A stretch of 46,084 nucleotides of DNA from Elusimicrobiota bacterium. Lineage in GTDB: Bacteria > Elusimicrobiota > Elusimicrobia > Elusimicrobiales > UBA9959. The stretch lies in assembly GCA_026388125.1 (NCBI GenBank), contig JAPLKJ010000267.1:1-46084 (forward strand), written 5' to 3'. This document shows positions 23,365 through 45,642 of the stretch, piece after piece (positions within the stretch are counted from its first letter, which is position 1; each line of letters begins with the position of its first letter). The translations under genes were made by a program, and so were the position numbers. The notes beneath the pieces were generated by a model. The model saw only the letters and a program-made list of their open reading frames with translations, ran no database searches and was not told where the DNA came from.

Positions 23365-23428
23365 ACGATAATGAATTATATTAATTATGTGTCCGGTAAA
23401 GAAAGGCCGTCAGGGAACTATTTTTTTG

Positions 23429-23434
23429 TATAAT
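23429..23434 (+). promoter_or_regulatory. -10 box of the histidine kinase gene
   Basis: A perfect TATAAT lies 25 bases before the ATG at 23459 and just after a T run. It makes that ATG the more likely start, since an upstream in-frame ATG at 23387 would precede transcription. No clear -35 box. Confidence 0.5.
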
Positions 23435-23458
23435 TTCGGCAGGGAAGTATTTCCGCTT

Positions 23459-25303
23459 ATGACCGAAACTCCGGGCAATAAAGTACTTTGGCTGGAATTC
23501 CTCAAGATCTTCACCCGGGCGCTGGTGCAGATAAACCTTTACCGGCCGGACCACCCCCAGGTGAAGCAGGCCCTCCAGGACGGAGAGGCCCTGCTCAAGC
23601 GCATCCACTCGGAAAACAGCGGGGATTTCTCCCTCACCATGGCCGCGGGCAGCCTGCTGGCCAACGGCCTTCCGCTGATCACCACGGATAAACTGCCCAA
23701 TTCAATAAAGAACCTGTTCTCCAGGTTCCGCGTCCAAACCATTACTTTCGTGCAGGGCGCCGCGGGCAGCGACCTGCTGGCGCTGTGCCAGATGCAGGCG
23801 CATAAAGGCGACGGCGCCGCTTTCCTCAGAGAGCGCGGAATAACCAAAATAACCCTGAACGTGGACGTTTACGCCAAGGTCGGCCCGTCCGCCGCCCAGG
23901 CGCCGAACCTGCCGGCCGCGGACGAAACTACCGGAACCGCGGCGCCCGCGCCGCAAGCCCCGGCCGCGCCCGCGGAAAAGATAGCCGAACAGATCTCCGC
24001 GCAGGGCCTTGAAACCGCCCTGTCCACCGTGGTCAGCCGGGCCACGGACAACCCCGAAGAGCGGAAAGCGATAATGGACCTCCTTACCGCCAAGTTCAAG
24101 GAGCAGCTCGCCACCGAGGTGGAGCGGGCGGTGGAAACGGTGCGCAAGGAAAAGAAAAAGGTGGAGAACGACATGGTCCGCACCGAGTCGGTGATGACCA
24201 GCATGGCCGAAGGCGTGGTGGTGGTGGACAAGAACGGCAACATCCTGATGATGAACCCCCAGGCCGAAGCCATCTCCGGGAAGCCGCTGGCGTAACTTTC
24301 CGGCAAGAAGATCTCCGACCTGCACCAGTCGGAGAACCACGTGATCTCGCTCGCGAAGCAGCTAAGCTCCGAGGACAAGGCCGACGTTCCCGGTGAAATA
24401 GAGAGGACCGGCTCGGCCGAACTGGCCGAAACGGTAAAAAAAGCCACCGCGGTCATACAGAACGAGGACGGCAAGATAGTAGGTTCCGTATCCATTCCCA
24501 CGGACGTGGTGAAGCTCAAGCAGATGGAGCAGCTGCAGAAGGATTTCATCGCCAACATGACCCACGAGCTGCGCTCCCCGCTCACTTCCATAAAAGCGGC
24601 GCTGGAAATACTGGGCCACGAAGCCTCAAAGCCCGGGGATTCCAGCCGCAGCATCCTTAACACCGCCATCCGCAACACCGAGCGCCTTAATTCCATAATA
24701 ACCGACATACTGGATTTCTCGAAACTCCAGTCGGGCAAGCTCGTTTTCCACCAGGAGAACACCCCCGCCGACGAGATCACCAGGGAGGCCGCGGAGTCGA
24801 TGAAGGCCTGGGCCACTTCCAAGGGAGTAGCCCTCTCCGCGAGAACGGAACTGCAGATCCCCTACGTCTACGCCGACAAGCGCCGCACCGTGCAGGTGCT
24901 GATAAACCTTATCTCGAACGCCATAAAATTCACGCCGCAGGGCGGCACCATCGAGGTGTCCGCCGACGCTGGCCGCGACGCGCTGGCGAACTTCGTTTTT
25001 TTCTCCGTCAGGGACACCGGCTGCGGCATAAAGAAAGAGGACCAGGCCAAGATCTTCGAGAAATTCGTGCAGATAGCCTCCGGCGAGAAAATGGGCGGCA
25101 CCGGGCTGGGGCTGGCCATCACGAAAGCGATGGTGATCATGCAGGGCGGGAAAATAACGCTGGACAGCGAACCGGGCCGCGGCTCCACCTTCCGGGTGAG
25201 CCTGCCGGTATACAAGGGACAGACCGACCAGCCGGTCTTCGAGCAGGTAACGCAAGCCGGGCCCGAAGATAAATCCTGGTGGAAAAAGCTGATCGGGATC
25301 TGA
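23459..25303 (+). pseudogene. Soluble PAS-type sensor histidine kinase with an in-frame TAA stop
   Basis: One reading frame of 614 codons is broken by a single TAA at 24293-24295 (codon 279). Before it are an N-terminal helical domain without membrane segments (LEFLKIFTRALVQINLYRPD), an Ala/Pro linker, a coiled coil and the start of a PAS domain (GVVVVDKNGNILMMNPQAEA). Immediately after, in the same frame, PAS sequence resumes (LSGKKISDLHQSENHV). Then come the H-box FIANMTHELRSPLTSIKAA (H369 counted through the stop), N-box LINLISNAIKFTPQGG and G-boxes VRDTGCGIKK and GGTGLGLAITKA. The kinase part is intact. A GTG at 24341 with GGAG six bases upstream could restart translation of a 320-residue kinase core. 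A point mutation (for example GAA to TAA), a sequencing error or recoding are all possible. No response regulator is adjacent. Confidence 0.85.
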
Positions 25304-25430: not shown

Positions 25431-25505
25431 GCGCCCGTATCTCAACGGATAGAGTCCTGCCCTGCGAAGGCAGTTATACTGGTTCGATTCCAGTCGGGCG
25501 CACCA
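25431..25505 (+). tRNA. tRNA-Arg (anticodon GCG)
   Basis: The 75-base sequence folds as a cloverleaf: acceptor GCGCCCG pairs with CGGGCGC, the D arm is TCTC/GAGT, the anticodon stem CTGCC/GGCAG encloses CTGCGAA, and the T arm ACTGG/CCAGT encloses TTCGATT. The CCA end is encoded. The loop puts GCG at positions 34-36, reading CGC and CGU arginine codons. Most bacteria read these with an ACG anticodon edited to inosine, so GCG is less usual. The first D-stem pair is a U-U mismatch. Confidence 0.95.
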
Positions 25506-39282: not shown

Positions 39283-42200
39283 ATGAGCGCTAAAGAACCT
39301 GTCCAGTCACCCATCGCCATAGTCGGCATCGGCTGCCTTTTCCCCAAGGCGGAGAACGCGCGCCGGTTCTGGGCCAATATAAAAACCGGCGTGGACGCCA
39401 TCACCGACATCCCCGCGTCCCACTGGCTGCCGGAAGAACATTACGACAATAACCCCAAGCGCCCTGACATGACCTACGCCCGCCGCGGCGGCTTCATCCT
39501 GCCCGTGGATTTCGACCCCTCCGAATTCGGCCTGGCGCCCAACGCGCTGGAAGCCACCGACAGCGCCCAGCTGCTGGGCCTGCTCACCGCCAAGATGGCG
39601 CTGGAAGACGCCGGCTACGGCCCCGGCCGCGACTTCGACCGCAGCCGCGTCAGCGTGGTACTGGGCGTTACCGGCGCGCTGGAGCTGGTTATCCCCCTGG
39701 GCGCGCGGCTGGGCCATCCCAAATGGCGCAAAGCCCTGTCCGAGTTCGGCATTACCGGCGCGGACGCCGAAGCCATCATCTCCCGCATGCAGGAGGACTA
39801 TGTCCCCTGGCAGGAAAGCTCTTTCCCCGGGCTGCTGGGCAACGTGGTGGCCGGCCGCATAGCCAACCGCTTCAACCTGGGCGGCACCAATTCCGTGGTG
39901 GACGCCGCCTGCGGCAGTTCGCTGTCGGCTGTGCATATGGCCTCGCTGGAACTGGCAGCCAGGCGCTCCTCCATGGTGGTTACCGGCGGAGTGGACTGCT
40001 TCAACGATATTTTCATGTACATGTGCTTCAGCAAAACGCCGGCCCTCTCGGCCTCCGGCGACGCCAAGCCTTTCGACGCCTCAGCCGACGGCACGGCGCT
40101 GGGCGAAGGCCTGGGCATGATAGTTCTTAAACGCCTTGAAGACGCGGTGAAGGACGGGGACAGGATCTACGCGGTGCTTAAAGGCGTGGGCTCCTCCTCC
40201 GACGGCAAAGGCAAGGCCATTTACGCGCCCAGCTCCGAAGGCCAGGCGCGGGCGCTCCGGAACGCCTATGAAGTAACCGGCGTCGCCCCGTCCACCGTGG
40301 AACTGGTGGAAGCGCACGGCACCGGCACCACCGTCGGCGACGGCGTGGAACTGGGCGCCCTCACCGAAGTTTATGGCTCGGCCAAAGACGGCGCCTGGTG
40401 CGCCCTCGGCTCGGTGAAATCCATGATAGGCCACACCAAAGCCTCGGCGGGCTCCGCCGGCATCATCAAGGCCGCGCTGTCCCTTTACAATAAAACCCTG
40501 CCCCCCACCATCAAAGTTACCACGCCTTTGAAGCAGCTGACGGCCGGCACCACGCCTTTCTACCTGAACACCGAACTCCGCCCCTGGATAAAGAAGGACC
40601 ATCCCCGCCGCGCGGGGGTCAGCGCGCTGGGCTTCGGCGGCGCCAATTTCCACGCGGTGCTGGAAGAATACAATGCCGAGAAGCAGCAGCCCGACTGGGA
40701 CGGAGACGTGCAGATAGCCGCAATATCGGGCCCGGACACGGAAACCCTGAAGCGGGACCTGGCCGCCTGGAAAGGGCTGGACTGGGACGGCATGCGCGTA
40801 AAGGCCATGCGCTCGCGCGCGGCTTTCAAGAACACCGACGCCGCCCGGCTTACTTTTGTGCTGGAACGCGGGCAGGACGCAGAGAGGCTCATTGCTTCCG
40901 CGCTGTCCAACCTGGACGCGCAGAAGAACAGCAGAACCTGGACCACCCCCGACGGGATATTCTTCGCCTCGGGCGCGCCGGAAAAGCTGGCGGTATTGTT
41001 CCCCGGCCAGGGCGCGCAGTACACCGGCATGCAGCGCGACATAGCCTGCCGCTTCCCCGCCGCGCTGGACACGCTGGCCGCCGCGGATAAAGCGTTCGGC
41101 GGCGCCAAGCCGCTGTCCGATTTCATCTACCCCCGCGCCGTTTTCACCCCGGCCGAAAAACAGACTCAGGCGGACGAACTGCGCGACACTAAGATCGCGC
41201 AGCCCGCGCTGGGCGCGGCGTCGCTGGGCGCTTACCGCGTACTGAACGGCTTCGGCCTGGCGCCCGACGCTTTCGCCGGGCATAGCTACGGCGAGCTGGC
41301 GGCCCTGTGCGCCTCCGGGGCTTTCGACGCTCCCTCCTTGTTCGCTCTGTCGAAGCTGCGCGGCAGCCTGATGGCCGCGGGCTCCGGCGACCGCGGCGGC
41401 ATGCTGGCGGTGCAGGCCCCCCTGGCCGACGTAGAGAAGGTGATGAAGGAAGAGAAACTGGACCTTATAATCGCCAACAAGAACGCCCCGGCGCAGTTCG
41501 TGCTGTCCGGCCGCACCGAAGAAATAAAGCGCGCTGCTGAATGCTTCAAGAAACGCTCGCTGAAAAATACGCCGCTGCAGGTTTCGGCGGCTTTCCACAG
41601 CCCGCTGGTGGCCGGCGCGCAGAAAGAGTTCGCCGCTGCGCTGGGCAAGACCAAATTCAACAAACCGCAGACGCAGGTATACGCCAATAAAACCGCCGGC
41701 GTCTACCCCGACTCCGCGGACAAGTCCCGCGAGCTCCTGGCCTCCCAGCTGGCTTCCCCGGTGGAATTCACCGCCATGGTGGAGAAGATGTACGCGGCCG
41801 GCCTGAGGACCTTCCTTGAAGTGGGCCCCGGCGCGCGGCTTACCGGCCTGGTGTCCGCCATCCTGGCCGGCAAAGAACATACGGCTTTCGCCATAGACGC
41901 TTCCGGCGGCAAACGCTCCGGCATTGCCGACGCCGCCCGCGCGCTGGCCCGCCTGGCCGCGCTGGGCTGCCGCCTGAACCTGGCCGCCTGGGAGAGCGGC
42001 GAGGCAGGAGTAAAGGACGCGCTGGAAAAGAAAGTTTCCAAGCTGGCGGTGAAACTGACCGGCGCGAACTACCGCTCGCCCCGCCCCGCTTCCGCCCCGA
42101 AAAAAGTTATCCAGCCGATAGCGGTACAGCAGGCGCAGCCCTCGGCCGCGGCTGCCCCGGCGGCGCACGCCTTTACGTCTGACGCGCTGCGCATAGCGCA

Positions 42201-45200
42201 GGAAAGCATGGCCGCCCTGCAAAGAATGCAGGAACAGACGGCTTTGCTGCACGCCCGTTTCCTCGAAGGCCAGGAAGCCGCGCAGCGCTCTTTCCAGGCG
42301 CTGGTGGACCAGCAGCAGCAGCTGTTCAGCGGCGCGCCGTTAAGCCCGCTGCCGGTATTCCAGGCGGCCCCCGCGCTCATGCCCGTCCCGGCGCAGCCCG
42401 CGCCCGCCCCGGCCGCCGGCGCTAATATTGAGCAGGTGCTGCTGGGCATAGTTTCCTCGCAGACAGGCTACCCCGCCGAATCACTGAACCCGGACATGGA
42501 CATGGAGTCCGACCTGGGCATCGATTCCATCAAGCGCGTGGCCATTCTTTCCGAGCTGCAGGAAAAACTCCCCTCAGCGCCGCGCATCACGCCCGAACAG
42601 CTGGGCTCCATACGCACGCTGCGGCAGGTTACATCTTACCTGGCGGCCGGCATGCCCCAGCAGGCGGCCGCGCAGACAGCGGCGGCCCCGGCAAGCGGCG
42701 CCGCCGCGGACGTAGCACAGGTACTGCTGGGCATCGTTTCTTCGCAGACCGGCTATCCCGCGGAATCACTGAACCAGGATATGGACATGGAATCCGACCT
42801 GGGCATAGATTCCATCAAGCGCGTGGCCATTCTTTCGGAGCTGCAGGAAAAACTCCCCTCCGCCCCGCGCATCACGCCCGAACAGCTGGGTTCAATACGC
42901 ACGCTGCGGCAGGTAACGGCTTATCTGTCGGCCGGCATGCCGCAGGCCCCCGCGCAGCCGGCGCCCGCAGCGGCTCCCGCCGGCGGCGGCGACGTGGCGC
43001 AGGTGCTGCTGGGCATAGTTTCGGCCCAGACCGGCTACCCGGCTGAATCTTTGAACCAGGACATGGACATGGAATCCGACCTGGGCATCGATTCGATAAA
43101 GCGCGTGGCCATTCTTTCGGAACTGCAGGAAAAACTCCCCTCCGCCCCGCGCATCACGCCCGAACAGCTGGGCTCCATCCGCACGCTGCGGCAGGTAACG
43201 GCTTTCCTCACGGCCGGCATGCCGCAGGCCCCCGCGGCCCCGGCCCCGGCGGCCAGGCCCGCTCCCGCGCAGCACCATGAAGAAGCGGTGATCACACGCG
43301 GTACCATCAAGGTAACTGATTTCAACCCCGCCGCGGCCAGGGAAAAAATAGTGCTGGACCAGCGCCTGCCCGTCTGGGTTACCGACGACGGCTCCGCCCT
43401 GGCCGGCGGCATAGTCAAAGAGCTTTCCGGCCGCGGCTACAGGGCGCAGAAAGTTTCGATGGCTAATCCCGGCGCGCTCAAGCCCTCCGAAGGCCTGGCC
43501 GGGCTGATCATCCTGGCCCCCGCCGCGAAGCTGACCGCTAAGTCTTTCTGGGCCGAAGATTCCGAGCGCTTCCTGAAGAACGCTTTCCGCCTGGCCCAGG
43601 TGGCCGGCCCCGCCCTGCGCGCGGCCGGTAAAAACTCCGGCGCGTGCCTGATGACGGTCTCGCGCCTGGACGGCTGTTTCGGCCTCTCGGGCCTGAAGTC
43701 CGAGCAGAACCCGGTTTACGGCGGGCTGGCAGGGCTGGCTAAAACGGCGGCTTTTGAGTGGCCGGAAGTTTCCTGCCGCGCGCTGGACGCCGCCGCCGAC
43801 TGGCAGCACACGGTGTCGGTGGCCCAGACCGTGGCGGACGAGCTTTTTTTCAAAGGCCCCGTTGAAATGGGTTTCTCGGAAACCGGCAGCAAAGTAGTGC
43901 TGCTCAGCCACTCCGAGCAGGTGAAGGGCGGCAAGCTGCCGCTGGAGAAAGGCGACGTAGTGCTTATTTCCGGCGGGGCGCGCGGCGTGACCGCCGAAGC
44001 CGCCGCGGCTCTGGCAGCCGCCTGCGGCCCGAAGCTTGCCATACTTGGCCGCAGCCCGCTGCCCGCCGCCGAGGAAGCCTGGCTGGCCGCCTGCTCCACC
44101 GAGGCCGATATTAAAAAAATCCTTATCTCCCGCAACCCGGGCATGGCGCCCAAGCTGGCCGGTGAAGAATGCCGCAAAATAATGGCCGCCCGCGAAATAC
44201 GCGCGCAGCTCAACCGCTTCGAGGCCGCCGGCTCGCGCGCGGTTTATTTCTCGGCCGATATACGCGACCGGCAGTCGGTCAGCGCCGCGGTGGAGAGGAT
44301 CACCAAAGAACTGGGCCCTGTCCGCGGCTTCGTGCACGGCGCGGGCGTCCTGGCCGACAAGCTGATCCTGGACAAGACCGCCGAGCAGTTCGATTCGGTG
44401 TTCGACACCAAGGTGACCGGGCTGCGCAATATCCTGACGGCGCTGGACCTGAGCAAGCTTAAAATACTCGCGCTATACTCGTCGTCCACGGCGCGCTTCG
44501 GACGCACCGGCCAGTGCGATTACGCCATGGCCAACGAAGTGCTGAACAAAACAGCCCGCCTGATAGCGCGCCGCCTGCCTGACTGCCGCGCGGTGGCCTT
44601 CAACTGGGGCCCCTGGGACGGCGGCATGGTCAACGACAACCTTAAAGCGCTGTTCGCCAAAGAAGGCGTGGGCGTGATAGGGCTCGAGGCCGGCGGCAAA
44701 TTCCTGGTCGACGAACTGGCCGCCAACAGCGGTGCGGTGGAAGTTATAGTGGTGGCGCGCCCGGCCGGCGCGGCGCAGGAGCCGCCCCCGGCGGCGGGCG
44801 GCCGGCCGGCGGCCGAGTTCACGGTCTCGCTGGAAGAGCAGCCTTTCCTGGCCTCGCATATCATCAACGGCAAAGCCGTAGTGCCCACCGCCCTGATAAC
44901 CGAATGGCTGGCGCACGGTGCGCTGCACGGCAACCCCGGCCTGCTGTTCCACGGGTTCAACAACTTAAAAATATACAAGGGCATCATCCTTGGCGGCGCA
45001 GGCGTTAAATTAGCCGTGCTGGCCGGCAAAGCCGCGAAGAAAGAAGGTTTCTTCGCGGTGGCGGCCGAACTGCGCGGCCCCAACGGCGAACTGCACGCGG
45101 GGGCCGAGATAGTCCTGGCCGTCAGCCTGCCGAAAGGCGGAGCGCCGGCACCCGACTTCGCGCTGAAGCCCTATACCCGCTCCATGGAGCAGGCCTACAG

Positions 45201-45642
45201 CCAGATACTTTTCCATGGCGAGGACATGCGCTTCATCCGCTCCGTGGCCGGCGTCTCCGAGAAAGGCATAGTGCTGGACGCGGCGGCCTCGCTGCCGCCC
45301 GGCTCGTGGCTGCGCCACCCGCTGCGTGACCGCTGGGTGGCCGACCCCGCGGCGCTGGACGCCGCTTTCCAGGGCATGATACTCTGGACCTTCGAGAATT
45401 CCGGCGCCTGCTCGCTGCCAAACTCGGCCGCGTCGTACCGGCAGTTCGCCCCGTTCCCCGCTAACGGCGTGCGCGTGGCCGCAACAGTTACGCGTTCCTC
45501 CGGGCATAGCGCCGTGGCCGACATTGATTTTATCGACGACAAAGGGACGCTGATAGCCCGGATGCAGGGCTATGACAGCACCGTGGACAAGGCACTCAAC
45601 GCCGCTTTCATGAAAAAGGAGCTGACCGCAACGCCGTCATAA
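39283..45642 (+). CDS. pfaA: Pfa-type iterative polyketide/fatty acid synthase, KS-AT-ACP-ACP-ACP-KR-DH
   Basis: A 2119-residue megasynthase resembling PfaA/Pfa2. The ketosynthase (about 8-460) has C210 in VDAACGSSLSAVH, H345 in EAHGTGT and H384 in MIGHTKASAG. The acyltransferase (about 570-870) has LFPGQGAQYTGM and S668 in AGHSYGELAA. Three tandem carriers place the phosphopantetheine Ser at S1082, S1177 and S1271, each in LGIDSIKRVAIL. The ketoreductase has the nucleotide motif ISGGARGVTAEAAAAL (about 1562) and Y1747 in QCDYAMANEVLNK. A C-terminal hot-dog dehydratase has H1859 in HIINGKAVVP and D2026 in LDAAFQGM. The KR-then-DH order resembles terrestrial myxobacterial Pfa2. It shares one base (TAATG) with the next gene. 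Confidence 0.94.
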   Translation: MSAKEPVQSPIAIVGIGCLFPKAENARRFWANIKTGVDAITDIPASHWLPEEHYDNNPKRPDMTYARRGGFILPVDFDPSEFGLAPNALEATDSAQLLGLLTAKMALEDAGYGPGRDFDRSRVSVVLGVTGALELVIPLGARLGHPKWRKALSEFGITGADAEAIISRMQEDYVPWQESSFPGLLGNVVAGRIANRFNLGGTNSVVDAACGSSLSAVHMASLELAARRSSMVVTGGVDCFNDIFMYMCFSKTPALSASGDAKPFDASADGTALGEGLGMIVLKRLEDAVKDGDRIYAVLKGVGSSSDGKGKAIYAPSSEGQARALRNAYEVTGVAPSTVELVEAHGTGTTVGDGVELGALTEVYGSAKDGAWCALGSVKSMIGHTKASAGSAGIIKAALSLYNKTLPPTIKVTTPLKQLTAGTTPFYLNTELRPWIKKDHPRRAGVSALGFGGANFHAVLEEYNAEKQQPDWDGDVQIAAISGPDTETLKRDLAAWKGLDWDGMRVKAMRSRAAFKNTDAARLTFVLERGQDAERLIASALSNLDAQKNSRTWTTPDGIFFASGAPEKLAVLFPGQGAQYTGMQRDIACRFPAALDTLAAADKAFGGAKPLSDFIYPRAVFTPAEKQTQADELRDTKIAQPALGAASLGAYRVLNGFGLAPDAFAGHSYGELAALCASGAFDAPSLFALSKLRGSLMAAGSGDRGGMLAVQAPLADVEKVMKEEKLDLIIANKNAPAQFVLSGRTEEIKRAAECFKKRSLKNTPLQVSAAFHSPLVAGAQKEFAAALGKTKFNKPQTQVYANKTAGVYPDSADKSRELLASQLASPVEFTAMVEKMYAAGLRTFLEVGPGARLTGLVSAILAGKEHTAFAIDASGGKRSGIADAARALARLAALGCRLNLAAWESGEAGVKDALEKKVSKLAVKLTGANYRSPRPASAPKKVIQPIAVQQAQPSAAAAPAAHAFTSDALRIAQESMAALQRMQEQTALLHARFLEGQEAAQRSFQALVDQQQQLFSGAPLSPLPVFQAAPALMPVPAQPAPAPAAGANIEQVLLGIVSSQTGYPAESLNPDMDMESDLGIDSIKRVAILSELQEKLPSAPRITPEQLGSIRTLRQVTSYLAAGMPQQAAAQTAAAPASGAAADVAQVLLGIVSSQTGYPAESLNQDMDMESDLGIDSIKRVAILSELQEKLPSAPRITPEQLGSIRTLRQVTAYLSAGMPQAPAQPAPAAAPAGGGDVAQVLLGIVSAQTGYPAESLNQDMDMESDLGIDSIKRVAILSELQEKLPSAPRITPEQLGSIRTLRQVTAFLTAGMPQAPAAPAPAARPAPAQHHEEAVITRGTIKVTDFNPAAAREKIVLDQRLPVWVTDDGSALAGGIVKELSGRGYRAQKVSMANPGALKPSEGLAGLIILAPAAKLTAKSFWAEDSERFLKNAFRLAQVAGPALRAAGKNSGACLMTVSRLDGCFGLSGLKSEQNPVYGGLAGLAKTAAFEWPEVSCRALDAAADWQHTVSVAQTVADELFFKGPVEMGFSETGSKVVLLSHSEQVKGGKLPLEKGDVVLISGGARGVTAEAAAALAAACGPKLAILGRSPLPAAEEAWLAACSTEADIKKILISRNPGMAPKLAGEECRKIMAAREIRAQLNRFEAAGSRAVYFSADIRDRQSVSAAVERITKELGPVRGFVHGAGVLADKLILDKTAEQFDSVFDTKVTGLRNILTALDLSKLKILALYSSSTARFGRTGQCDYAMANEVLNKTARLIARRLPDCRAVAFNWGPWDGGMVNDNLKALFAKEGVGVIGLEAGGKFLVDELAANSGAVEVIVVARPAGAAQEPPPAAGGRPAAEFTVSLEEQPFLASHIINGKAVVPTALITEWLAHGALHGNPGLLFHGFNNLKIYKGIILGGAGVKLAVLAGKAAKKEGFFAVAAELRGPNGELHAGAEIVLAVSLPKGGAPAPDFALKPYTRSMEQAYSQILFHGEDMRFIRSVAGVSEKGIVLDAAASLPPGSWLRHPLRDRWVADPAALDAAFQGMILWTFENSGACSLPNSAASYRQFAPFPANGVRVAATVTRSSGHSAVADIDFIDDKGTLIARMQGYDSTVDKALNAAFMKKELTATPS
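42433..43227 (+). repeat. Three near-identical 228-base acyl carrier repeats
   Basis: Units at 42433-42660, 42718-42945 and 43000-43227 each encode 76 nearly identical residues from QVLLGIV to GMPQ. They are separated by Ala/Pro-rich linkers of 57 and 54 bases. Differences are mostly silent, with single changes such as SLNPDMD versus SLNQDMD. Tandem carriers in Pfa synthases raise product yield. The low divergence suggests recent duplication or gene conversion. Confidence 0.95.

Follow-up and report, generated by a model that had tools for sequence, protein, structure and literature searches.

A single private in-frame stop codon in a PAS histidine kinase gene of an Elusimicrobiota bacterium: most likely a young mutation or a consensus error

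A stop codon standing alone in an otherwise open and conserved gene raises the question of whether the gene has been broken, the codon is translated, the product is usefully shortened or the base is simply wrong. The question arises in the window, by which is meant the whole stretch of 46,084 nucleotides that was analysed, in which the forward-strand frame of a histidine kinase gene (23459-25303) is interrupted by a TAA at 24293-24295, codon 279. The original prediction was of a lone stop inside a PAS domain with recognisable domains on both sides, attributable to recent loss, strain polymorphism, sequencing error or read-through. The TAA is indeed the sole break, the rest of the frame being open from the ATG at 23459 to the TGA at 25301-25303, an end that 614 codons precede, the TAA among them; a longer listed ORF starts at an in-frame ATG at 23387, upstream of the kinase ATG, and the alignment of relatives places the beginning of the conserved protein at 23459. 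The domains are also where they were expected, with Pfam finding PAS_8 before the stop at residues 241-274 (E 3e-5) and, after it, a kinase core (24536-25210) of HisKA (E 5e-19, 68.6 bits) and HATPase_c (E 2.2e-29, 102.6 bits), both above their cut-offs of 26.9 and 26.4. Residue 369 (24563-24565) is presumably the His-box histidine. With the TAA at codon 279, sensor and kinase domains are not joined in one translated frame in the window. In the intact orthologue of the nearest relative, genome G010 (locus L010), PAS-type models extend over residues 241-349, followed by HisKA at 360-426 and HATPase_c at 473-584, and the window stop thus cuts the PAS domain, which by this intact protein reaches from residue 241 to about 350 (24179-24508). 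Chance pairing of two separate ORFs does not account for a frame this long (about 614 codons) that is stopped once, shows homology before and after the stop and has intact full-length orthologues.

The part of the protein furthest upstream is less familiar. The N-terminal domain, about residues 1-145 (23459-23893), has no Pfam match in the window, and Pfam applied to 29 members of the domain gave five families with one member each, the best at E 0.071. The motif HPQV is invariant in 29 aligned rows, and the domain was matched in 34 of 198 sampled genomes of the phylum, its own genome counted. A model of the domain has a pLDDT of 85. No sequence in the PDB matched the domain up to E 1, Foldseek found nothing at E <= 0.001, and the best VIA-align Z was 4.9, a lack of matches that does not show the fold to be new.

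An important consideration in judging the stop is what stands at codon 279 in other genomes. The part of the protein before the stop was searched in 61 genomes, 35 of which matched, the window's own among them, and the codon was read at 31 relatives' loci, comprising 29 from that search together with L058 and L059. It is GAG in 14, GAA in nine, CAG in six, CAA in one and GCT in one, and a stop in none of the 31; the TAA is thus private to the window, and the presence of orthologues without it at every locus compared is as expected of a pseudogene in the sense of a nonsense allele. Of the relatives' frames, 29 of 31 reach their natural end and the other two (L011 and L038) are still open where the retrieved sequence stops; that of L035 is cut at its beginning by a contig edge, at about residue 21. 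The rows of five further matching genomes show no internal stops. In G010 the kinase is intact and codon 279 differs from that of the window by one base, the 221 bases around it being 98% identical within a longer alignment (window 11430-32701) of 95.4% identity.

Whether the genome carries other stops of this kind was assessed against G010. The genome of the window (G000) is an assembly of 3.47 Mb in 311 contigs, 95.3% complete and with 4.2% contamination, and 20 stretches of it, amounting with the window to 375,921 bases, were set against 910,361 bases of G010. Blocks of >1500 bases and >88% identity were kept, giving 14 blocks of 91,228 bases that were 95.3% identical, and within them frames of at least 120 aa (at least 150 aa in one earlier comparison) that were at least 95% aligned and showed at least six differences (at least eight in the 150-aa comparison), more than half of them at third positions, other frames being dropped. 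In G000 a mid-gene stop is seen in the kinase and in no other of the resulting 67 G010-reference frames, which together hold 23,397 codons. A stop before the last tenth occurs in two of the 67, the kinase and L098, where it lies at 6% of the frame and probably reflects a different start choice; in the reverse direction two of 68 frames have an early stop in G010, at 0% (L098) and 21% (L107). The second of these, at 12667-13074 of L107, is open in G000. Frame-changing indels touch three and four frames in the two directions. A further kinase gene (L103, 8112-10285) shows indels of 1 and 28 bases between G000 and G010 close to its start, probably a start-site matter. Third codon positions account for 2057 of the 2943 differences from G010, a proportion owed in part to a filter that favours such frames, and since the window was chosen for its stop the kinase is unfit for estimating a rate. 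Several more general explanations were tried and rejected on these grounds: without the third-position filter, stops appeared also in frames antisense to real genes, and these frames were read as spurious ORFs; six other flagged kinase matches, out of 46, which might have indicated a genome rich in broken genes, proved to be natural gene ends crossed by the alignment; and an error-ridden assembly or a recoded genome is at odds with the kinase being alone among the filtered frames. Matches to the short domain PF02518 in 32 genomes, which yielded no rate of in-frame stops, included, among those listed, two outside the window's own genome that carry a stop (G016 and G005).

If the stop were old, the gene might be expected to show it. 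Between window and G010 the kinase has a dN/dS of 0.258, the highest of the 16 window genes measured, two others being near it (0.24 and 0.23); the part upstream of the stop gives 0.40 and the part downstream 0.21. Across the 40 kinase pairs listed, the window/G010 pair included, values range from 0.13 to 0.39, so that 0.258 falls inside the range, although the comparison is a loose one because the pairs with higher values are far more diverged; the two next-closest pairs are lower, at 0.132 and 0.173. When changes were placed with L011-L013 as outgroups, the window branch received 11 nonsynonymous and nine synonymous changes in addition to the stop, and the G010 branch 14 of each, with 10 changes unplaced. 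Under neutrality the probability of at most 11 nonsynonymous changes in 20 on the window branch is 0.04, 0.07 and 0.10 for kappa of 1, 2 and 4, that of at most seven in 13 after the stop is 0.07-0.15, and that of at most 14 in 28 on the G010 branch is 0.004-0.017 depending on kappa. In the protein tree the end branch of the window measures 0.013 and that of G010 0.028. There is therefore no clear decay in the gene, and constraint after the stop is not clearly relaxed; the counts are small, so that an older stop is conceivable. The stop is accordingly most likely either of recent origin or an error in the consensus, a conclusion towards which the decay data lean without proving it.

The setting of the kinase has also changed. 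At 19 of 20 named loci the gene before it encodes a nucleotide-sugar dehydrogenase, and in 18 of those 19 (the exception is L049) the dehydrogenase stop and the kinase ATG share bases in an ATGA. Two of the 19 dehydrogenases scored 429 and 431 bits with NCBIfam TIGR03026, whose cut-off is 190, and one of the 19, scanned with Pfam, has UDPG_MGDP_dh domains. Over the 31 loci the dehydrogenase lies upstream in 28 and is absent from L010 (G010) and L012 (G003), L035 starting at a contig end; the window is likewise without it, and the best matches elsewhere reach 26% identity in G000 and G010 and 34% in G003. G003 groups in the tree with G007, and the window and G010 with G031, each with a support of 100/100, and since both of these sister genomes have the gene it was most simply lost twice, once in the lineage of the window and G010 and once in G003. 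That the window and G010 alone lack the gene is contradicted by its absence from G003. In the window 94 bases separate an M50 peptidase gene from the kinase, and a readable scar is left there, in which the last dehydrogenase codons and stop (23441-23462, overlapping the kinase ATG) read GKYFRL and stop, compared with GKNIFRL and stop in L052; L012 also retains the last dehydrogenase codons. Window and G010 do not differ over the 116 bases that lead from the intergenic region into the beginning of the kinase. A TATAAT located upstream of the dehydrogenase gene in relatives has been kept and now stands directly before the kinase (23429-23434). A promoter scan did not list it as sigma-70-like, the scan needing both hexamers, and the case for a role comes from its recurrence in all 11 of the relatives' stretches listed. 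Downstream the neighbourhood is conserved, a tRNA-Arg(gcg) (25431-25505) following the kinase at 19 of 20 named loci, with L042 ending inside the kinase gene. Further along the same strand of the window, 39283-45642 is an open frame of 2119 residues. G010 and G003 each lack the dehydrogenase and still have an unbroken kinase, so that loss of this partner is not in itself enough to disrupt the kinase gene; that the loss rendered a later stop tolerable is a guess.

What, then, might become of the TAA in the cell? Conservation of the ordinary kind continues in frame beyond it, as it would if the codon were translated, but the tRNA complement gives this reading no encouragement. Of 41 tRNA matches in the genome, 40 have ordinary anticodons (30, the one in the window and nine more), and the last, a weak tRNA-Ser found only at a relaxed ARAGORN threshold, has the anticodon TGA and reads TCA. 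None reads TAA, although at 95% completeness such a tRNA could be missing from the assembly. Nothing other than a tRNA reached the Rfam gathering score, the codon is a sense codon in the relatives, and the genome sample yielded no second mid-gene stop, so that of the two marks of stop-codon recoding, a TAA-reading tRNA and recurrent in-frame stops, neither was found; read-through, one of the options originally offered, is thereby left with hardly any credence. A second possibility is that the gene has been usefully truncated, selection keeping a sensor-free kinase core of 320 residues translated from the GTG at 24341 (frame 24341-25303). As had been pointed out, this GTG has a GGAG (24331-24334) six bases upstream; it lies 45 bases past the stop, is the only in-frame ATG, GTG or TTG between the stop and 24480, and opens a frame in which HisKA and HATPase_c are complete. 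The restart thus exists as sequence, but not as a conserved start. The codon is GTG in 24 of 32 rows (the 31 relatives' loci and the window) because it encodes a conserved valine, a start-capable codon and a Shine-Dalgarno-like tetramer coincide in only 10 of the 32, window included, and the shortened protein would start within the PAS domain, all of which make a selected truncation very improbable. More improbable still is an elaboration in two steps, in which loss of the dehydrogenase brought the kinase behind its promoter and the stop then severed the sensor, leaving the core to restart at GTG 24341 as an unregulated kinase or phosphatase.

We are thus left, with considerable confidence, with a private single-base nonsense difference in an ordinary PAS histidine kinase that is either a young mutation or a consensus error, and with the loss, polymorphism and sequencing-error options of the original prediction, all of which fit a stop that is absent from 31 relatives' loci and unmatched among the filtered frames. 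A real recent mutation or strain variant we hold to have about an even chance. That the organism has a sense codon, the assembled base being wrong or drawn from a minor strain, is a lesser though substantial possibility: there is one assembly, in 311 contigs and with 4.2% contamination, the change is of a single base, and the rest of the kinase gene shows no clear decay. Against this, the assembly looks clean in the sampled frames, where no other gene is stopped in mid-course and differences fall mostly at third positions, with the proviso that the filter favours frames of that type. On this reading one base change in the sampled strain, or one mistaken consensus base, would have produced the TAA at codon 279. 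If the stop is real, translation from the ATG at 23459 would yield 278 residues, comprising the N-terminal domain and a portion of the PAS domain but no kinase; the core could then be made only by the restart at GTG 24341, and the two-component output would be lost or, with lower probability, uncoupled from its sensor.

The locus may well be of use as a control case, in which a striking in-frame stop proves private and single once orthologues, a genome sample and tRNAs have been checked, and the operon partner lost in two lineages with a readable scar, the kinase being retained, provides a small example of how the setting of a kinase changes. Judged by title and abstract, none of the papers found on Elusimicrobiota kinase pseudogenes, or on a premature stop with reinitiation in histidine kinases, was relevant. 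In NCBIfam the intact G010 protein has PnpS/WalK/PhoR-type families among its best matches, and it is below the cut-off for each of the 25 families listed of 86 (PnpS 250.9 against 400); such kinases have PAS, HisKA and HATPase_c in the same order, but here the N-terminal domain is a different and nameless one. The short form of CheA is made from an internal start that is a regular feature. The window kinase resembles it in that an in-frame internal start could shorten a kinase, and differs in that this start is not conserved. Among bacterial sensor kinases, nonsense alleles and young pseudogenes are of a known kind. Unlike them, the window stop is known from the consensus base of one assembly alone, yet it shares with them a single premature stop in a conserved gene, private to one genome, and all that has been observed here is consistent with an ordinary event of this sort, with nothing pointing to a new mechanism.
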